Shown here: positions 1,180-18,056 of the stretch, piece after piece | How the letters are laid out: each line of letters opens with the position of its first letter | Position numbering within the stretch: position 1 is the stretch's first letter | Virus record (IMG/VR): IMGVR_UViG_3300013307_000052 | Span: 1 to 21,530 of that record | Strand: one strand, 5' to 3' | Length of the DNA stretch: 21,530 nucleotides | From: a virus | Position numbers and translations under genes: made by a program | Notes under the pieces: generated by a model | What the model saw: only the letters and a program-made list of their open reading frames with translations | Told to the model about the DNA's origin: nothing | Database searches by the model: none

Positions 1180-1259
1180 AATAAAACCCTTTTTGTTTGT
1201 GGGTTGCTGTATTGCTTCCCGATGAAAAGATTATACGACAAAAGCCCCTTTCGGGGCAA
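1180..1259 (-). promoter_or_regulatory. Terminator-promoter composite and leader of the 778-1179 gene
   Basis: On the minus strand: TTGCCC (1254-1259), 18-bp spacer, TATAAT (1230-1235). The spacer and -35 contain the GCCCCGAAAGGGGC hairpin (1244-1257) followed by TTTT, which also terminates the 1280-2203 operon. The leader carries GC-AATACA-GC inside a GGG/CCC frame (1201-1220). Its TTTTCATCGG after the -10 recurs in the leader of the 6346-6528 gene. Confidence 0.75.
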
Positions 1260-1279
1260 GTGTTTTGATCATTTGTTTG

Positions 1280-1573
1280 TTATTCTTTTTCTAGCGGTTC
1301 AGCCTCATAACCTAGCGTTCTTATGTCAAACAATGCTTGATCAATCTCGTTGATCTTCTTCTGAAAGAATTCCCGCCGTGCTTGTAAGCTGTCGTCTAGC
1401 TTCTCTAATGACTCTTTAACCGTTGATCCACTAGATTCTATTGTGCCATTGCCTAGCCCTGGCATATTCCCCGCTGACGATGTAGCACACCAATAGCCCC
1501 GCTTTGACCAGAAAACGCGGAAAGTGTTTGCATCAAAAATCATCTTTTTAAGCAAGGGAGAAAAACGGATCAT
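1280..1573 (-). CDS. Hypothetical protein with C-terminal coiled coil, 97 aa
   Basis: Not recognised. Residues 1-45 look like a small strand-rich segment (FRVFWSKRGYWCATS). A Gly/Ser linker follows around 33-52. Residues 53-88 are a strongly heptad-like helix, rich in Glu, Lys and Leu. It is the fourth and last gene of the operon that begins at 2203. Its ATG overlaps the stop of the preceding gene (GAATGA). The hairpin at 1244-1257 terminates the transcript about 25 bases past its stop. Confidence 0.8.
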   Translation of the reverse strand: MIRFSPLLKKMIFDANTFRVFWSKRGYWCATSSAGNMPGLGNGTIESSGSTVKESLEKLDDSLQARREFFQKKINEIDQALFDIRTLGYEAEPLEKE

Positions 1574-1734
1574 TCTATCACCTCATAGCCAATTGTTTCA
1601 CACCAGGAAAGCGCCTGATCTTTTGTCTGGAATCTTGCACCCTCTACCGCTTGATTTTCCCGATAGCCTGACATTATTTTCATAGTGTAATCAACCTTAT
1701 TACGATAACGATTAGTGATTATTTTTACTCTCAT
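1570..1734 (-). CDS. Small hypothetical protein, 54 aa
   Basis: Starts MRVKIITNRY and ends GYEVIE. It is basic at the N-terminus, then has an amphipathic stretch around QTKDQALSWCETIG that resembles the 'aligned helix' segment common in tiny phage proteins, though no family is assigned. The ATG at 1732-1734 overlaps the stop of the upstream gene (TAATG), and its TGA overlaps the next ATG. Translation is therefore coupled on both sides, which strongly supports it despite its size. Confidence 0.8.
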   Translation of the reverse strand: MRVKIITNRYRNKVDYTMKIMSGYRENQAVEGARFQTKDQALSWCETIGYEVIE

Positions 1735-1931
1735 TATTTCCACGCTTTAATTGATCTTTCTAGCTTAGGAATGCTAACCTTTAAGGCTAACATTAAGTTA
1801 ACTTGCTTAGGTTTCCAGGTGTCTTGATCCTGCAAGGCTGCATAACGCTTTTTATCATAGGCTAATTGCTCTTTCTTCTTCTTAAGTGTTAACTTACCGT
1901 GCCAAGTAAAACCGCTAACTGTATTATTCAT
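1734..1931 (-). CDS. Basic hypothetical protein, 65 aa
   Basis: Lysine-rich and mostly helical (KLTLKKKKEQLAYDKKRYA), ending in KLERSIKAWK. A nucleic-acid or membrane-surface role is possible but not shown. Start ATG follows AGGTGATAAA. The AGG overlaps the stop region of the upstream membrane-protein gene 8 bases away, and its stop overlaps the next start (TAATG). It is the second gene of a four-gene operon. Confidence 0.8.
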   Translation of the reverse strand: MNNTVSGFTWHGKLTLKKKKEQLAYDKKRYAALQDQDTWKPKQVNLMLALKVSIPKLERSIKAWK

Positions 1932-1939
1932 TTTATCAC

Positions 1940-2203
1940 CTATGCAAAGAGAGCCACACCGCCACCGAGAAGGAAAGGCAGATCATAACGTGTAAAGCGC
2001 TTGTAACGCATCCATTGAATGATCACAAAGGAAAGCAACTGTAAAGCGTCGATCACGTTGTTTGTGATATTGACTGTTTCACCACTAAACACCATTTCAC
2101 CTGTAAGATTGAAAACCACGTTTGACACGTAAGCACAAACTACAGAGAATAAGCAAGCTTTGATAATGCTTGTTTTTGATAGTGTTTTGATAATTGATTT
2201 CAT
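1940..2203 (-). CDS. Small multi-pass membrane protein, 87 aa
   Basis: From MKSIIKTL, three hydrophobic segments are visible: about residues 14-34 (ACLFSVVCAYVSNVVFNL), 49-64 (ALQLLSFVIIQWM) and 75-87 (LPFLLGGGVALFA). The last runs to the C-terminus. It is an inner-membrane protein by composition, function unknown. An ATG four codons upstream (2215) is also in frame, but the 2203 start is preferred because the upstream ATG falls in the AATGG leader-loop sequence. First gene of the operon running to 1280. Confidence 0.75.
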   Translation of the reverse strand: MKSIIKTLSKTSIIKACLFSVVCAYVSNVVFNLTGEMVFSGETVNITNNVIDALQLLSFVIIQWMRYKRFTRYDLPFLLGGGVALFA

Positions 2204-2260
2204 TTGTTGCACCATTTGAGCCAGAAAATCTATTATGCACTATTGCCCCTTTCGGGGCAA
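2204..2260 (-). promoter_or_regulatory. Terminator-promoter composite upstream of the membrane-protein operon
   Basis: On the minus strand: TTGCCC (2255-2260), 17-bp spacer, CATAAT (2232-2237). The C-CCC-GAAA-GGG-G hairpin (2245-2258) lies in the -35 and spacer and follows the 2267-2461 gene. It therefore terminates one unit and helps form the promoter of the next. Confidence 0.75.
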
Positions 2261-2266
2261 GCTTTA

Positions 2267-2461
2267 TTAGTAAATGATTTTCTCGCAGGTCATAGCGTTA
2301 TAATCTTTCATTGCCATAGTTATGCTACCCTTACGCAGATCCCAATCAAGATTAAGCTTTTGTGCGTGAGTGATTTCGAATTGACCAAAGGCGTGATAAG
2401 CAAAGTATTTATCGTCAACGATATCGAATCCAGTGTGTGAGATAATGATAGAATCTTGCAT
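2267..2461 (-). CDS. Hypothetical protein, 64 aa
   Basis: Begins MQDSIIISHTGFDIVDDKYF. Predominantly strand-like with alternating hydrophobics, no transmembrane segment, one cysteine near the C-terminus. No family recognised. Start supported by AGGA 10 bases upstream. It is monocistronic between two terminator-promoter composites (2232-2260 and 2492-2520). A 66-codon frame at 2320-2520 overlaps it on the same strand but has no ribosome site and crosses the promoter, so it was not adopted. Confidence 0.8.
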   Translation of the reverse strand: MQDSIIISHTGFDIVDDKYFAYHAFGQFEITHAQKLNLDWDLRKGSITMAMKDYNAMTCEKIIY

Positions 2462-2520
2462 TTGATGTTATTCCTAATTGGGTGAGATAAGATAGTAACA
2501 TTACCCCCTTTCGAGGGCAA
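2462..2520 (-). promoter_or_regulatory. Terminator-promoter composite for the 2267-2461 gene
   Basis: On the minus strand: TTGCCC (2515-2520), 17-bp spacer, TACTAT (2492-2497). The hairpin GCCCTCGAAAGGGGG overlaps the -35 and spacer immediately after the stop of the 2528-2881 gene. Confidence 0.75.
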
Positions 2521-3213: not shown

Positions 3214-3422
3214 TATACGCGATCATCCTCAATCAAAATAATTTCATCGCTGAAATGATGCGTTACCATCTCGCAACCTTCCTCAGTGATATAATGGATT
3301 GACATATAATCGCCGTGATCAACTTCTGTGATCAGCAATGAATATTGCTCACCGAAACAGTTTTCACGCGCCAGGCGATCACCCGCTTGGATACATTCAG
3401 CCTTAATCATACGTGCTTTCAT
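3213..3422 (-). CDS. Hypothetical small beta-rich protein, 69 aa
   Basis: Starts MKARMIKAECIQAGDRLAREN. The opening 'KAECIQAGDRL' and the later alternating strands (YSLLITEVDHGDYMSIHYIT) suggest a small SH3-like or Hedgehog/intein-type beta barrel of a kind frequent in phage genomes. This is a fold impression, not a match. Start 3422 chosen because AAGGAAAACAAAATG precedes it. A longer in-frame start at 3473 overlaps the promoter. Confidence 0.8.
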   Translation of the reverse strand: MKARMIKAECIQAGDRLARENCFGEQYSLLITEVDHGDYMSIHYITEEGCEMVTHHFSDEIILIEDDRV

Positions 3423-3496
3423 TTTGTTTTCCTTAGTGGTTAGCAGTATTGCCGCCCTTCTGATAAACATCATATCATAGTGAGCGACACGATCAA
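3423..3496 (-). promoter_or_regulatory. Promoter and leader of the 3422-2971 operon
   Basis: On the minus strand: TTGATC (3491-3496), 16-bp spacer, TATGAT (3469-3474). The leader contains GC-AATACT-GC and ends CTAACCACTAAGGAAAACAAAATG-like, the form shared by many genes here. Confidence 0.7.
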
Positions 3497-3499
3497 CAC

Positions 3500-3915: not shown

Positions 3916-3970
3916 TTTCTGATTCCTGTCTTTGTTTAGGCTCTATTGCCTCAGTCCGTATATAATAGCA
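3916..3970 (-). promoter_or_regulatory. Extended -10 promoter and hairpin leader
   Basis: On the minus strand TGCTATTATA (3961-3970) is an extended -10 with no good -35. The leader hairpin AGGC-AATAGA-GCCT (3938-3951) follows. The promoter at 5161-5170 is built the same way. Confidence 0.65.
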
Positions 3971-4093
3971 TAACCAGTTTTAAGATCCACTATTGTTTTG
4001 TAAAGATTGTGGAACTATTCTCATTACCAGAATAACAGGTATCTCCAGTGTGTTTCCTCCGGTGTCCATCGTTGCCGCTGTAAGTAAGATAAC
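3971..4093. other. Short gene-free interval
   Basis: A 29-codon minus-strand frame (MDTGGNTLEI...) ends at 3980 but has no ribosome site ahead of it. GGAGG and GGAG words inside are not followed by usable starts. No convincing gene or promoter. Confidence 0.4.
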
Positions 4094-4117
4094 AAAAAAG
4101 GCCAGCGATTGCCAGCC
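4094..4117 (-). terminator. Intrinsic terminator after the 4128-4475 gene
   Basis: On the minus strand GGCUGGC and GCUGGCC pair (7 bp with two G-U pairs) around AAUC, then TTTTTT (4094-4099). Confidence 0.8.
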
Positions 4118-4127
4118 CTTTCTACTA

Positions 4128-4475
4128 TTATTCGTAATCCTTGTAAATCTCTGTAATAACTTCCCAAACATCTGCCTTTGTATGACAGATTCTATACTCT
4201 TCAGAGGCGACTACATCGCCCATCTGTGATCCTTCGTCAGTCTCAGGATCTACACCTTCGGGAAAGTGAACCAGCGTTAAATCTTCAACACGATAAGCAC
4301 TCTTGCCGCTTCGCAGATTCATCGGGCCTGGTGCAATAGTGTAGCACAACTCATAACGTTTACAAACAGACAAGACAGAATTAACATGAGAGTAAGACGG
4401 ATGACCATAGTCACGGATATTTGCCATATCTTCACGGGCTTTATCTTTTGCATCTTTCAGTTTAAAACGAATCAT
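4128..4475 (-). CDS. Hypothetical protein, 115 aa
   Basis: Starts MIRFKLKDAKDKARED. A basic N-terminal helix (1-22) is followed by an acidic C-terminal half (ETDEGSQMGDVV and ITEIYKDYE). No family recognised. The frame extends 44 codons upstream, but 4475 is chosen because AAGGATAAATAAA precedes it and the extension covers another small gene and the promoter. Second gene after the 24-aa membrane peptide, and followed by a strong terminator. Confidence 0.8.
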   Translation of the reverse strand: MIRFKLKDAKDKAREDMANIRDYGHPSYSHVNSVLSVCKRYELCYTIAPGPMNLRSGKSAYRVEDLTLVHFPEGVDPETDEGSQMGDVVASEEYRICHTKADVWEVITEIYKDYE

Positions 4476-4486
4476 TTTATTTATCC

Positions 4487-4561: not shown

Positions 4562-4618
4562 TTTGTTTCTTTCCGTTGTCTGTTTCAGTAAGGCTATTAT
4601 GCCCCACTTTCGCAGGGC
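4562..4618 (-). promoter_or_regulatory. Promoter with hairpin abutting the -10
   Basis: On the minus strand CATAAT (4596-4601) follows GCCC-TGCGAAAGT-GGGGC (4601-4618), which also follows the 4636-5112 gene. No convincing -35 at 17 bp, so this is a weaker member of the terminator-promoter set. Confidence 0.5.
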
Positions 4619-5389: not shown

Positions 5390-5445
5390 AATTTCCTCTA
5401 TTCATTGATAGTGCATAAGTAACGGGGTTTATGCAGATAGTAACA
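5390..5445 (-). promoter_or_regulatory. Extended -10 promoter and hairpin leader
   Basis: On the minus strand TGTTACTAT has its -10 at 5437-5442. The leader hairpin GCATAA/TTATGC (5413-5434) has a 10-nt loop. Confidence 0.6.
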
Positions 5446-5471
5446 GATAGCAACTAAATTTAAGCCATTTT

Positions 5472-5536
5472 CAGGAGATCACGACAAATCGCCCTATCTT
5501 AAAACCTCCTGTAACGCTCTCTAAGCGTTGATCTCC
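5472..5536 (-). ncRNA. Candidate switch-like structured RNA in an intergenic gap
   Basis: GGAGATC (5474-5480) pairs with GATCTCC (5530-5536), enclosing AACGCT/AGCGTT (5513-5518 and 5524-5529). CAGGAG (5472-5477) can instead pair with CTCCTG (5506-5511). The two pairings share 5474-5477, so they exclude each other. On the minus strand one arm is AGGAGG, a perfect anti-SD complement. A 40-codon frame also crosses here (5463-5594 region) without a ribosome site. Confidence 0.4.
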
Positions 5537-5631
5537 GAAAGTGCTACCATTGCATTGCCTCGCAGAGATCTCTTTAAATTCACTTTTTTGCATAACGCAA
5601 AAATGAAATAAAGTTGTATTTTCTATTGATT

Positions 5632-5739
5632 TTAATCGTCAAGTAAGATCACGATTAGCCAAATGATTAAAGCGGTCGTCCAGCCGAACAAATGTACCAT
5701 AAGAGCGAAAAACAATACATCAATGATAAAGTCACGCAT
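5632..5739 (-). CDS. Tiny membrane protein, 35 aa
   Basis: Starts MRDFIIDVLFFALMVHLF and ends LIVILLDD. Nearly the whole chain is hydrophobic: two short spans or one long one with a central GWTT, and acidic residues at both ends. AAGGGTAATT precedes the ATG, and the start lies 5 bases after the stop of the 5745-6221 gene, so it is the last gene of that operon. Function unknown. Confidence 0.75.
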   Translation of the reverse strand: MRDFIIDVLFFALMVHLFGWTTALIIWLIVILLDD

Positions 5740-6224: not shown

Positions 6225-6350
6225 TTAAGCCCTTTTCATAAAGTCAACGGCACTTGATAAGCTGCGTAATTTGCTTTCTATTGCAAGTGAGATAGCATTG
6301 TATGTTTTAACCCGACTAGGTGCAAGCTGAATCTTGCGGATCTCGTTAAT
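6225..6350 (-). CDS. Small basic protein probably initiated at ATT, 41 aa
   Basis: The product is (M)NEIRKIQLAPSRVKTYNAI..., ending SSAVDFMKRA: a plausible short helical basic protein. The frame has no ATG, GTG or TTG near its start. ATT at 6348-6350 overlaps the preceding stop (ATTAA) and lies 6 bases after AAAGG. The stop is 3 bases before the next gene, which leaves exactly the space an operon member should fill. ATT initiation is rare in bacteria (infC is the standard case). A sequencing error is the alternative. Confidence 0.6.
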   Translation of the reverse strand: MNEIRKIQLAPSRVKTYNAISLAIESKLRSLSSAVDFMKRA

Positions 6351-6528
6351 ATTTTGCCTTTACTTTCTTGTTACATCCAGCATCATTAGCAACGGTATTC
6401 ATCACCGCTTGCACTTTCTGATTGTGAATTCTGAAAATTGCATCAGGGTTATATTCCTGGCGCTTTGTTGCTGTCAGAGTGTCGTTGGCGATTGAACGTA
6501 ACAGAGTGAGGAGTTGTAAAGGTTGCAT
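6346..6528 (-). CDS. Hypothetical protein, 60 aa
   Basis: Starts MQPLQLLTLLRSIANDTLTA; helical, basic, ending KKVKAKY. No family recognised. AAGGCAAACAAAATG precedes the start. First gene of the operon 6528-6225-5745-5632. Its leader shares TATAAT-NN-TTTTCATCGG with the 778-1179 gene, so the two regulatory cassettes are probably copies. Confidence 0.8.
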   Translation of the reverse strand: MQPLQLLTLLRSIANDTLTATKRQEYNPDAIFRIHNQKVQAVMNTVANDAGCNKKVKAKY

Positions 6529-6590
6529 TTTGTTTGCCTTAGTTGCTTAACCGATGAAAACCATTATACACTAACAGAGGCGGGAGTAAA
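6529..6590 (-). promoter_or_regulatory. Terminator-promoter composite of the 6528-5632 operon
   Basis: On the minus strand: TTTACT (6585-6590), 16-bp spacer, TATAAT (6563-6568). A GCGGG/CCCGC hairpin (6580-6598) that follows the 6609-6725 gene contains the -35. Confidence 0.65.
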
Positions 6591-6608
6591 CCCCCCGCGC
6601 AATGTTTA

Positions 6609-6725
6609 TTATTGGAAACACAAGACTAAAAAGACGATAGCCCACAAACCGCCGCTGATTAACAGCTTTGTTTTGTTTTCTGCTAAAAATGATTCTTCTT
6701 TATAGTCTATACTGTCGCTTTCCAT
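6609..6725 (-). CDS. Tail-anchored small membrane protein, 38 aa
   Basis: The first 20 residues are polar and acidic (MESDSIDYKEESF). Residues 21-38 form a single transmembrane segment ending at the C-terminus (LLISGGLWAIVFLVLCFQ). The AGAGG upstream is rather far (about 14 bases), so translation may depend on coupling to the gene ending 6 bases earlier. Last gene of the 8127-6609 operon. Confidence 0.65.
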   Translation of the reverse strand: MESDSIDYKEESFLAENKTKLLISGGLWAIVFLVLCFQ

Positions 6726-7055: not shown

Positions 7056-7325
7056 TTAAGCTGTCATATAATCGTTGACGATAGCAACAATAGTTGCTGG
7101 AGTATCTTGCAGTGAGATAACAGCGTTATCGCTCACCTGATGAAAACCATTATCGCATAAATAGGTTAGATTGCAAAGATTATTTTCAACTGATACCACA
7201 ATTCCCACTCTGCGATTATGAAACGAAAACTTAAACGTTTTTTCTGTCTTTGTTACGTCTTGGGAGTCTAACATAACGCCGTCAACAATACTAGAGAAAA
7301 AAGCCAAAGTGTTTGCGAGTACCAT
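7056..7325 (-). CDS. Hypothetical beta-rich protein, 89 aa
   Basis: Starts MVLANTLAFFSSIVDG. A hydrophobic N-terminus (3-15) could be a weak signal or the core of the fold. The rest alternates strands (RRVGIVVSVENNLCNLTYLCDNG) and ends in an amphipathic helix (ATIVAIVNDYMTA). Not recognised. AAGGAATATTTTTAA precedes the start, a slightly long spacing. Third gene of the operon. Confidence 0.75.
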   Translation of the reverse strand: MVLANTLAFFSSIVDGVMLDSQDVTKTEKTFKFSFHNRRVGIVVSVENNLCNLTYLCDNGFHQVSDNAVISLQDTPATIVAIVNDYMTA

Positions 7326-7338
7326 TTAAAAATATTCC

Positions 7339-7908
7339 TTACAGTGCGATTAGTTGGGTGGCAATGCAGCCTTTTAGCACAACAGCGCCAGCCTCTTTAC
7401 TAATGAAATCACAGTTTAGCTTAATGCCTAGTGATTGTCCAGAAAATTCTGCTGCCAATGTCTCTGTGATTTCTGTTCCCTTCTCCACCATTGGCACGGC
7501 TCTAGCTTCTAATTCCTTTGCGGTTAGCTGGACGTAAGCAACAACCGGACTTGCTTTAGAATACAGGTTTACTTTAAGGTTTAGATTACCGTTAGCCATT
7601 TCTACAGATTCGCCAATACTTTTCACCTTGAAAAACACCTGGCCTAGTGATGATTTTAATTGCTTCTTTGCACCTTCGAGATCACTTACTGCATTCTCTG
7701 CAATACCTTGGGATAAAAACATTCTCGCATAAGCTGGATCAGATGTAAAGTCTTGTTTTGACATAGTACCAGAGTAAAAACAATCCTGGATAGCTAAAGC
7801 GTGATAACGGGATTCTTGCCCGAAATTAGTATCACTGCACCACTTAGGCGCGGCGCTGGCGGTGAAGCTGGAAAGGGCCAGGGCTGCAACTAGGATTGTC
7901 TTTTTCAT
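7339..7908 (-). CDS. Secreted (periplasmic) hypothetical protein, 189 aa
   Basis: Textbook signal peptide: MKKTILVAALALSSFTASAA with cleavage expected after the ASA or SAA residues (about 19-20). The mature protein has four cysteines (about 24, 43, 165, 180), suggesting two disulfides, and a central repeat-free alpha/beta body. No family recognised. AAGGCGAGACA precedes the ATG. The largest product of the 8127-6609 operon, which appears to export two or three proteins and so probably acts on the cell envelope. Confidence 0.85.
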   Translation of the reverse strand: MKKTILVAALALSSFTASAAPKWCSDTNFGQESRYHALAIQDCFYSGTMSKQDFTSDPAYARMFLSQGIAENAVSDLEGAKKQLKSSLGQVFFKVKSIGESVEMANGNLNLKVNLYSKASPVVAYVQLTAKELEARAVPMVEKGTEITETLAAEFSGQSLGIKLNCDFISKEAGAVVLKGCIATQLIAL

Positions 7909-7917
7909 TGTCTCGCC

Positions 7918-8127
7918 TTATATCTGCTTTGTCTCAATCAGTGCAGATATACTAACACAGTTTTCCCAATTATCTATAACTATTTTTGATTCTTTTTCGT
8001 CTACAGACAACACAATGCCCCACACAGAGAAGCCGTATTGATCGCGGTAACGCGCTTGCATTCTATTGGATTGCTTCCATTGGAGGATAAAAGCGGGGAG
8101 GTTGTTTATAGCGGTGTCGTGTCTCAT
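7918..8127 (-). CDS. Hypothetical SH3-like small protein, 69 aa
   Basis: Starts MRHDTAINNLPAFI. From residue 24 the pattern RYRDQYGFSVWGIVLSVDE, KSKIVIDNW, CVSISALI resembles a five-strand barrel. No exact family. First gene of the operon. The ATG lies after AGCAGCA, a poor ribosome site, so the start is less certain than most. Confidence 0.7.
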   Translation of the reverse strand: MRHDTAINNLPAFILQWKQSNRMQARYRDQYGFSVWGIVLSVDEKESKIVIDNWENCVSISALIETKQI

Positions 8128-8962: not shown

Positions 8963-9040
8963 TTTGTTTTTCCTGGTTAGTGTGTGATTGTTTCTCTAAA
9001 TCAGAGACACTATTCTATAATGTCTCTTGTTTACAGTCAA
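8963..9040 (-). promoter_or_regulatory. Strong promoter with inverted repeat flanking the -10
   Basis: On the minus strand: TTGACT (9035-9040), 17-bp spacer, TAGAAT (9012-9017). AGAGACA (9003-9009) and TGTCTCT (9021-9027) are perfect inverted repeats on either side of the -10. Confidence 0.8.
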
Positions 9041-9199: not shown

Positions 9200-9273
9200 T
9201 TTCTTCTCTCTATCGGCGGGAGCCATTCCCGCCCTGTGATAAGTAGTATCGTTTATTTTGAATCTTACGTCAA
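9200..9273 (-). promoter_or_regulatory. Promoter and stem-loop leader of the 51-aa gene
   Basis: On the minus strand: TTGACG (9268-9273), 17-bp spacer, GATACT (9245-9250). Leader hairpin GGCGGG-AATGGCT-CCCGCC (9215-9233). Confidence 0.8.
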
Positions 9274-9286
9274 CAACTATTTTTGT

Positions 9287-9634: not shown

Positions 9635-9714
9635 AATATTTTCTCTTCTCTGTTAGGGACAACCCTTTGTTGTCCTGATATGAAACATTCTACGCTATTT
9701 TGATTTAGAGTCAA
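9635..9714 (-). promoter_or_regulatory. Promoter and stem-loop leader of the acidic-protein gene
   Basis: On the minus strand: TTGACT (9709-9714), 16-bp spacer, TAGAAT (9687-9692). Leader hairpin GGACAAC/GTTGTCC (9657-9675), perfect 7 bp, 5-nt loop. Confidence 0.8.
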
Positions 9715-9751
9715 CAACTATTTTTCTAAATCTTTTAACTTTCTTTCTCAT
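9695..9751 (-). CDS. Possible 18-aa basic peptide
   Basis: The product would be MRKKVKRFRKIVVDSKSK, preceded by AAAGGGGCA, a strong ribosome site directly after a hairpin (9751-9774). However, the 3' half coincides with the AAAGATTTA...TTGACT block that is conserved upstream of several promoters here, so the open frame may be incidental. Confidence 0.3.
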   Translation of the reverse strand: MRKKVKRFRKIVVDSKSK

Positions 9752-9774
9752 TGCCCCTTTAATCAAAGAGGCAA
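9751..9774 (-). terminator. Hairpin after the 9787-10113 gene
   Basis: TTGCC/GGCAA and CTTT/AAAG pair around a short loop. No T tract follows, so it may be an RNA 3'-end stabiliser rather than an intrinsic terminator. Confidence 0.5.
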
Positions 9775-9786
9775 CACGAAAAATCG

Positions 9787-10113: not shown

Positions 10114-10177
10114 TTTCTTTTCCTTGGTTGCTCTGTTAGTGTGAGAGTATTTTATTACAGGCTATCGCTATTTGCAA
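10114..10177 (-). promoter_or_regulatory. Terminator-promoter composite of the 9787-10113 gene
   Basis: On the minus strand: TTGCAA (10172-10177), 17-bp spacer, TAAAAT (10149-10154). The hairpin AGGCTAT/ATAGCCT (10159-10165 with 10177-10183) follows the 10197-10367 gene and spans the -35 and spacer. Confidence 0.7.
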
Positions 10178-10196
10178 TAGCCTATTAAAAATATTC

Positions 10197-10367: not shown

Positions 10368-10450
10368 ATTTTGTCTTCTCTTTTGTTTGAGCGGGAAACC
10401 ATTTCCCCGCTTGATGTAAGTATTATCGTTTATTCGGTTGTTGCTGTCAA
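10368..10450 (-). promoter_or_regulatory. Strong promoter and stem-loop leader of the 56-aa gene
   Basis: On the minus strand: consensus TTGACA (10445-10450), 17-bp spacer, GATAAT (10422-10427). Leader hairpin 10390-10411 (AGCGGG...CCCGCT) with AATGG in the loop region. Confidence 0.85.
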
Positions 10451-10468
10451 CACTTTATTTTGAATCTT

Positions 10469-10735: not shown

Positions 10736-10807
10736 TTTATTTTCCTTGGTTGATTGTTTTCTCTTACCTAGTGAGGCTATTCTAAAGCCCCACTAAATCA
10801 AAGTCAA
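10736..10807 (-). promoter_or_regulatory. Strong promoter with inverted repeat flanking the -10
   Basis: On the minus strand: TTGACT (10802-10807), 17-bp spacer, TAGAAT (10779-10784). AGTGGGGCT (10786-10794) and AGCCTCACT (10770-10778) flank the -10 with one mismatch. The TGA of the upstream gene lies inside the -35. Confidence 0.8.
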
Positions 10808-12304: not shown

Positions 12305-12532
12305 ATGAAACAGTTTACAATGGTTATTGCTAAAAGTGGTTTTCAGATTAAATCGTTAAATGGTCGGGGCCGTCCTGTAAACGTGAAGCCTGGCGATCTG
12401 TTCCTAGTTACTTCTCCAGCCCATAACAACAAAGATCAAGTTATGGTAGACCGTAAAGCCAGGGCTATGATCAATTCTGGTTATTGCCTCAGTCGAGCAG
12501 ACCTAGAAACTTTCTTTGATATTGTGGAATAA
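12305..12532 (+). CDS. Phage hypothetical protein, beta-rich, 75 aa
   Basis: Starts MKQFTMVIAKSGFQIKSLNG. Residues 24-52 (VNVKPGDLFLVTSPAHNNKDQVMVDRK) read as a small beta barrel. The C-terminal part (AMINSGYCLSRADLETFFDIVE) is helical. The combination is familiar from small phage proteins, but no function is known. AGGGCAAC precedes the ATG. One of few plus-strand genes. Terminated by the hairpin at 12544-12561 that also belongs to the next promoter. Confidence 0.85.
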   Translation: MKQFTMVIAKSGFQIKSLNGRGRPVNVKPGDLFLVTSPAHNNKDQVMVDRKARAMINSGYCLSRADLETFFDIVE

Positions 12533-12537
12533 AACTA

Positions 12538-12595
12538 TTGATTGCCCGATTCAATTCGGGCATAATGCTTTCACTCCAACAAATGAGGCAAGAAA
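12538..12595 (+). promoter_or_regulatory. Terminator-promoter composite on the plus strand
   Basis: TTGATT (12538-12543), 17-bp spacer, CATAAT (12561-12566). The spacer is exactly the hairpin GCCCGA-TTCAAT-TCGGGC (12544-12561). This shows the composite design also on the plus strand. Confidence 0.75.
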
Positions 12596-12772
12596 ATGAT
12601 CACAACATCTGATACAATCGTTACAATGTTCACTTGGGAAACGAGTGCTTTACATTGCGGATCTCGCCAGGTGCCATTGCCTCACGCTATGAAAATGCTA
12701 AACGCCGGATTCTATCGGGTGAAGTTGGTAGCGGAGAATGGGGAAATAATTGCAGATACTTTGAATTATTGA
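12596..12772 (+). CDS. Small hypothetical protein, 58 aa
   Basis: Starts MITTSDTIVTMFTWETSALH and ends ENGEIIADTLNY. Likely a small alpha/beta fold (helix PLPHAMKMLNAG, then strands FYRVKLVAENGEII). GAGGCAAGAAA precedes the ATG at an ideal distance, 30 bases after a good -10, so it is the likelier of two overlapping frames. A +2-shifted frame (12634-12963) overlaps its last 46 codons. Family unknown. Confidence 0.7.
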   Translation: MITTSDTIVTMFTWETSALHCGSRQVPLPHAMKMLNAGFYRVKLVAENGEIIADTLNY

Positions 12773-12963
12773 TAGACAGGGGCGCAAGCTCCTGTTACAC
12801 TATCTTTGAAGTAAGGCAACGCCAACCAACGGCGCTAAACTTGGCTAGCAGGCCCGAAGGGGCTGCAAGGTGGATCGCCGGTAGGCTGTCTAAAATAAGT
12901 TTTGTAAAGATTGAAATAAAGCTTGATCCATTCTGCCACTATGATATTATATTCACAGAGTAA
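12634..12963 (+). CDS. Overlapping frame, possible 109-aa protein (TTG start)
   Basis: Open from TTG at 12634 to TAA at 12961-12963, reading LGNECFTLRISPGAIASRY and ending FCHYDIIFTE. The product is protein-like throughout, but there is no ribosome site, five of its last six arginines use AGG, and the frame overlaps a better-supported gene. It could be an overlapping gene, the product of a frameshift near 12770, or chance. Confidence 0.3.
   Translation: MGNECFTLRISPGAIASRYENAKRRILSGEVGSGEWGNNCRYFELLIDRGASSCYTIFEVRQRQPTALNLASRPEGAARWIAGRLSKISFVKIEIKLDPFCHYDIIFTE
12773..12892 (+). ncRNA. Hairpin-rich segment, possible RNA structure
   Basis: TAGACAG (12773-12779) and CTGTCTA (12886-12892) are perfect 7-bp ends of a closed region. 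Inside are CAGGGGC-GCAA-GCTCCTG (12777-12794, GNRA loop, shares CAG with the outer stem) and GCAGGCCC-GAA-GGGGCTGC (12848-12866, one mismatch). The hairpin at 12777-12794 could also terminate the 58-aa gene. Not independent of the coding alternative above. Confidence 0.3.
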
Positions 12964-13153: not shown

Positions 13154-13260
13154 TTTTTAATATAAATTTAGGATTACGAATTCTGTTTTTCAAAAAGTCA
13201 AAAAAATCCTACGACCCTGGCCCGATTTTTGAAAAATATTTTTGTCAAGGTTTTTAAAAA
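13154..13260. repeat. AT-rich direct repeat, copy 1
   Basis: Starts TTTTTAATATAAATTTAGG. The first 63 bp match copy 2 (13297-13359) at 53 of 63 positions, including a shared end AAAAAATCCTACGACC. Weaker similarity continues for about 45 more bases. TAGGATT and AATCCTA form an inverted repeat inside. Confidence 0.7.
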
Positions 13261-13296
13261 TAATTCTATCTTGTTGGCTGTTTTCTTGGGAAAGTA

Positions 13297-13403
13297 TTTT
13301 TAATATAAATTCAGGTTTACGAATATTGATTTCTGAAAACTCGAAAAAATCCTACGACCTTTTGCCAATTTTAGATAAATTGTTTTGCAAGATTTTGTAA
13401 AAC
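13297..13403. repeat. AT-rich direct repeat, copy 2
   Basis: Offset 143 bp from copy 1 and about 84% identical over 63 bp. Long A and T tracts, no coding potential. The internal inverted repeat is less perfect than in copy 1. Confidence 0.7.
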
Positions 13404-17828: not shown

Positions 17829-17892
17829 CTTTAATAACTCCGTTCTCTGTTTCGATAGGACACATACTACAAGACAGCCCGTAGGCTGTCAA
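17829..17892 (-). promoter_or_regulatory. Terminator-promoter composite with consensus -35
   Basis: On the minus strand: TTGACA (17887-17892), 17-bp spacer, TAGTAT (17864-17869). The perfect hairpin GACAGCC-TACG-GGCTGTC (17873-17890) begins inside the -35 and fills the spacer, and terminates the upstream operon at TTGT. The stop TGA of the 55-aa gene is part of the same -35. Confidence 0.85.
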
Positions 17893-18056
17893 TCGATAAT
17901 TTTAGCGTAATGATAGTTTAATACCTTATCTTTATTCGACTGAATCCATTTCAAGCCCATATGAATATCGGTGAAGCAAAAAACTTCGCTTTCTGTCCGT
18001 AGTTTAGGTGTAATGGCAGTGACACGACTTGTGCTAACAATCAGTGCTTTCTTCAT
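17889..18056 (-). CDS. Small hypothetical protein, 55 aa
   Basis: Starts MKKALIVSTSRVTAITPKLR and ends NYHYAKIID. Alpha/beta in pattern (ALIVSTS strand, VFCFTDIHMG). No family. ATG overlaps the lipoprotein gene's stop (TGATG), and AGGATGG lies upstream. Its stop is inside the -35 of the next promoter. Confidence 0.75.
   Translation of the reverse strand: MKKALIVSTSRVTAITPKLRTESEVFCFTDIHMGLKWIQSNKDKVLNYHYAKIID

Follow-up and report, generated by a model that had tools for sequence, protein, structure and literature searches.

Candidate PeSL-like promoter/stem-loop elements between the small early genes of an rV5/phAPEC8-type phage

The DNA analysed in this work, hereafter the window, is a virus fragment of 21,530 bases from IMG/VR (IMGVR_UViG_3300013307_000052), and nucleotide searches placed it in the block of early genes of a phage of the rV5/phAPEC8 type, related to the Stephanstirmvirinae and Vequintavirinae. 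The searches returned Klebsiella phi1_175008, Escherichia Schickermooser and phiWec188 among the Stephanstirmvirinae and GAP31 and Hena1 among the Vequintavirinae, and IMG/VR holds close relatives at about 75-99% identity across the window. The early genes are mostly small, with intergenic gaps of about 50-100 bases, and an Rfam scan of the window matched no family. Sigma70-like promoters, which are sequence predictions throughout this work, were found at a score of at least 7 bits in 17 of the 22 window gaps and in 147 of 186 gaps over nine phages, the window included. Promoters of this kind in the short gaps that separate small early genes are expected of the PeSL (promoter early stem-loop) of T4-like phages, for which the available descriptions speak of "composite conserved promoter-terminator motifs" and of modular shuffling (Arbiol 2010; Comeau 2014).

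The initial annotation had named seven sites at which the hairpin ending one gene lies inside the promoter of the next, and at all seven, where it had placed them, a hairpin overlaps the -35 and/or the spacer of a sigma70-like promoter; each site is located between two same-strand genes. On the minus strand, the element at 1230-1259 (TTGCCC-18-TATAAT) contains the stem-loop GCCCC GAAA GGGGC (1244-1257), has a terminator-like tail, TTTTG, after the stem, is identical in the relatives L009 and L012, and would end gene 1280-1573 and start gene 778-1179. That at 2232-2260 (minus strand, TTGCCC-17-CATAAT), between genes 2267-2461 and 1940-2215, has the stem-loop TTGCCCC GAAA GGGGCAA (2243-2260) and no U-tract, and in that at 2492-2520 (minus strand, TTGCCC-17-TACTAT; stem-loop 2501-2520) a G.U pair is replaced by G-C in relatives. 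At 10149-10183 (minus strand, TTGCAA-17-TAAAAT) the stem-loop occupies 10159-10183 (AGGCTATTGC AAATA GCGATAGCCT), with two compensatory pair changes in the relative L008 and a partly broken stem in L009. The element at 17864-17892 (minus strand, TTGACA-17-TAGTAT) carries its stem-loop at 17873-17890, and the TGA that ends the upstream gene 17889-18056 sits within the TTGACA hexamer. On the plus strand, at 12538-12566 (TTGATT-17-CATAAT), between genes 12305-12532 and 12596-12772, the stem-loop 12543-12562 fills the spacer. The remaining site, put at 6563-6590 and called probable, is present too: a hairpin occupies 6580-6598, within a minus-strand element at 6563-6598 (TTTACT-16-TATAAT) set between a short ORF at 6608-6725 (38-39 aa) and gene 6346-6528, but it spans the -35 and the bases upstream of it and overlaps the spacer only slightly. 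That the design repeats while the sequences differ was borne out across the sites, the arm sequences being unrelated from one to another.

Further sites had been missed. A probable member at 4596-4618 (minus strand) with a weak -35 has the stem-loop GCCCTGC GAAA GTGGGGC (4601-4618), the last base of which is the C of the CATAAT -10. Two minus-strand elements, both TTGACT-17-TAGAAT, place the -10 in the hairpin loop: one at 9003-9040, with the stem-loop AGAGACA...TGTCTCT at 9003-9027, and one at 10769-10807, with the stem-loop at 10769-10795 (TAGTGGGGCT TTAGAAT AGCCTCACTA). The gap 3916-4127 (minus strand) holds a canonical terminator of gene 4128-4476 (GGCTGGCAATCGCTGGCC followed by TTTTTTG) and directly after it a -10-like TATCTT, and our scan scored it as a -35/spacer hairpin. 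Hairpins in the leader were also found, namely a weak one with the promoter TTGATC-16-TATGAT of the gap 3422-3499 (minus strand), one just past the start site of the promoter at 9200-9286 (minus strand; GGCGGGAATGGCTCCCGCC), and others in the gaps 9635-9786 and 10368-10468.

In gaps as short as about 50-100 bases any hairpin and any promoter might be forced to overlap, by chance or by simple packing. In the main shuffle test the promoter hexamers were kept fixed and the remainder of each gap was shuffled, 1000 times for the window. A hairpin in the -35/spacer accompanies 8 of the 17 window promoters against 0.35 expected, with a maximum of 2 in any shuffle, so that the overlap lies well above chance; when hairpins around the -10 are counted as well, the figures are 10 of 17, 0.47 expected and a maximum of 3. 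The scan that it had proposed, for a stem-loop overlapping TTGNNN-16/18-TANNNT, gave 4 in the window against 0.8 in dinucleotide shuffles, and 31 against 6.7 when the window and five relatives are taken together, although L003 taken alone was not enriched (2 against 1.2); in 50 kb of E. coli K-12 the same test showed no enrichment (0 against 2.6). By the gap method, E. coli yielded two -35/spacer hairpins and one leader hairpin in only 12 upstream regions, a control that is weak and not empty. Chance or packing was rejected on the hexamer-preserving shuffles and on the discrete positions that the hairpins take, and we regard its probability as close to negligible.

Since the record is a fragment of 21,530 bases, the shuffle test was carried beyond the window to its relatives, where 115 of the 147 promoters of the nine phages form a non-redundant set. 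A scan for distant loci linked to the ATPase gave mostly distant matches and was excluded from use. In the non-redundant set the hairpins occupy three discrete slots, observed 25 times against 1.9 expected for the -35/spacer (slot A), 11 against 0.4 for a loop containing the -10 (slot B) and 49 against 1.9 for the leader just past the start site (slot C). In many slot A hairpins the last base is also the first of the -10, as in TTGACA-AGCGCCGGGAATCCGGCG-CATAAT of GAP31, slot B loops are centred on the -10, and slot C hairpins begin 13-21 bases past the first base of the -10. Thus the reuse of the -35 and spacer described by the initial annotation is real but is not the sole geometry. In the window slot A is filled most often, in the relatives slot C, and A and C occur together in two non-redundant gaps. 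This co-occurrence allows the slots to differ in function, and a simpler rule that we considered, of a single hairpin per gap placed either before or after the start site, is ruled out by the relatives that carry both. Leader hairpins (e.g., GGGCGGCAATGGTGCCGC) are dominant in the early gaps of the relatives L003, L005, L006 and L097, and they may be 5' stabilisers of the mRNA or protein-binding leaders.

The inverted repeats might act in the DNA, as cruciforms or as operators for a dimeric protein that controls the promoter, and the coincidence of loops with the -10 and of arms with the spacer would suit such a role. The unrelated arm sequences of the different sites argue against one binding protein, and the mispaired positions show a strand asymmetry: in the stems of slots A and B, read on the coding strand, G.T occurs 18 times and A.C 3 times (P=0.0015; strand-symmetric search, with RB49 and T4 pooled in). 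Because a dyad acting at the DNA level should lack such a bias, the excess of G.T indicates structure in the sense RNA; a DNA operator or cruciform is disfavoured by it, and we consider that explanation very unlikely. As the slot A hairpins and the 5' arms of the slot B hairpins lie upstream of their own start site, the sense RNA holding them would be read-through from the preceding gene. The stems are also conserved. Among 175 pair comparisons in close relatives, 164 pairs were unchanged, 6 were kept by a one-sided change, 2 were compensatory and 3 were broken, all three in one homologue of the 10149 site, and divergence among these relatives amounts to 3.7% in stems, 6.8% at nearby positions and 10.3% in farther flanks. 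In eight slot B elements, which were selected for having the hairpin, 10 consecutive pairs are kept with several pair types at most positions; in a subset that shares its outer sequence, the same arm changes are seen in the alignment. Taken from sequence comparison, these patterns point to the hairpins nested in the promoters folding as sense RNA.

The nearest known system is the PeSL, and we judged the likeness on second-hand descriptions and our own scan of RB49 and T4. In the stretches examined, hairpins nested about the -10 or in the spacer accompany 13 of 22 RB49 promoters, where 0.31 would be expected, and T4 gave a weaker signal, with 3 of 18 against 0.24. As in the PeSLs, a strong sigma70-like early promoter and a stem-loop stand between small early genes, in many copies with differing arms, and, as in RB49 by our test, the -10 lies in the loop or the spacer is filled by the hairpin. 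Second-hand descriptions associate the PeSL with gene shuffling, and the window elements may have a similar link. The two differ in that the genomes here are of the rV5/phAPEC8 type and not T4-like (Straboviridae), in the leader-hairpin slot of the relatives, which the same scan did not detect in the RB49 and T4 stretches, and in the dominance of spacer hairpins in the window. By this analogy the window elements appear to work like PeSLs, with no claim of common descent with those of T4. A PeSL-like motif with the same proposed role, a TATA-like element with an inverted repeat that precedes most ORFs in one arm of the genome, has been proposed in the archaeal virus HGTV-1, although the promoter there is archaeal (PMC3950731). 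Closer to the window, in the same wider phage group, early promoters of Certrevirus are concentrated among small genes, and the main-text passages on Certrevirus and rV5 sigma70 promoters and terminators list the two separately and describe no nesting (PMC7344957, PMC3606486). The window would therefore represent a PeSL-like system outside the T4-like phages, and for this phage group we found no earlier description of one.

Whether the hairpins are terminators has a mixed answer. At least 5 T within the 8 bases past the stem were found in 4 of 24 slot A hairpins and in none of 10 slot B hairpins, and a GC-rich hairpin with an immediate U-tract occurs at 1244-1257 and in the 3916-4127 gap and not at most other sites. 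The absence of a U-tract from most spacer hairpins and from all -10-loop hairpins makes intrinsic termination doubtful there. The idea that each hairpin ends the upstream gene is thus supported insofar as the hairpins behave, in sense-strand RNA, like a 3' element, but the term terminator does not suit all sites; termination is likely for part of them. The main rival to a PeSL-like arrangement starts from this point: the hairpins would be elements of RNA processing or stability (RNase III sites or exonuclease blocks, protecting a 3' end) in a polycistronic read-through RNA, the genes being co-transcribed and each promoter only adding RNA. Besides the missing U-tracts, the -10-loop stems of up to 17 pairs with one mismatch speak for it, and the G.T bias is compatible with any function in sense RNA. 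It fits poorly with the clear terminator-like tails at 1244-1257 (TTTTG), in the 3916-4127 gap (canonical) and at position 1063 of the relative L097, and the PeSL stem-loops of RB49 and phi1 are reportedly effective terminators. On balance we hold processing or 3'-end protection to be unlikely, though it deserves serious consideration.

We consider it rather probable that these are composite early PeSL-like promoter/stem-loop elements at the junctions of single-gene cassettes, with stop and start signals in one block. Read-through RNA from the upstream gene would fold at the element into a hairpin that forms its 3' end. Stems with a U-tract after them would do so by intrinsic termination, the others through a weaker termination across the AT-rich -10 or by protection of a processed 3' end. 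For the following gene the same DNA would be a strong promoter of the sigma70 type. RNA born at this promoter would begin at or past the hairpin and so be without it or without its 5' arm. This last property recalls gene e of T4, whose promoter is nested in the DNA for the 5' strand of a hairpin that only the longer RNA can fold (PMC3014915), and the window hairpins could in principle separate read-through from promoter-born RNA in the same way, the longer transcript hiding its ribosome-binding site. The hairpin of gene e hides that site, whereas the window stems end upstream of it, and a gene e-like switch is therefore most improbable. A more specific form of the PeSL-like reading is a relay in which the -10/spacer doubles as hairpin loop and terminator tail, and the host polymerase that releases the upstream RNA stays beside the promoter and restarts, along one-gene units that evolved separately from the T4 PeSLs. 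E. coli RNA polymerase can remain on DNA after termination and re-initiate at a nearby promoter (PMC11347151), and a promoter nested in the terminating element would carry this to the extreme; we regard the relay as a speculative and quite unlikely possibility.

With stop and start signals in one short block, a gene and its element would form a portable unit that could be gained or lost via recombination. One whole-cassette difference between relatives was observed. L009 (14811-15310) and L012 (1-470) contain, inside the equivalent of the window gap 3422-3499, where the gene is missing, an additional small gene in full and, after it, a promoter/hairpin element of its own, in which the -35 TTGCAA lies in the hairpin loop and TTACCGC-TTGCAATCGCTAG-GCGGTAA is followed by TAAGCT. 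The difference is bounded by two near-identical copies of the sequence preceding the start codons (CCACTAAGGAAAA...AAAATG). This single example looks as expected if a cassette of gene plus element had been gained or lost, and none of the other indels examined between close relatives coincides with a composite element. From such sequence evidence we infer promoter activity, termination or 3'-end formation and the mechanism of recombination. As a separate observation, gene 7339-7908 is missing in L009 (window 7248-7919 against L009 10980-11180), with the junction between a common promoter-like leader and the start codon.

To the T4-like phages, where this regulatory design was already known, these results add another, separate group of large enterobacterial phages, and they put figures to the design. 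If the elements work as proposed, they would help to explain how dozens of small exchangeable early genes are kept as independent units, and they would offer a natural test bed for the recycling of polymerase from a terminator to an adjacent promoter.

Several other features of the window were observed. Just 3' of the canonical terminator and -10-like element described above, 63 bases (4017-4079) without an Rfam match share about 92% identity with Cronobacter GAP31 and Enterobacter EC152, and they are a possible candidate for a conserved small RNA. Within the non-coding gap 5390-5634, a segment at 5561-5608 is 92-100% identical over 38-48 bases in several Klebsiella phages, and 109 bases at 12808-12916, between the early and later gene blocks, match Erwinia phage Hena1 at 89% identity, and no gene is annotated beneath the match. 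Diverged direct repeats (TAATATAAATT...AAAAAATCCTACGACC) lie at 13154-13402, between the early and ATPase blocks, and at the extreme end of the record (1-115) an inverted repeat, AATATAATAACGGAA ... TTCCGTTATTATATT, surrounds a stretch of about 110 bases.
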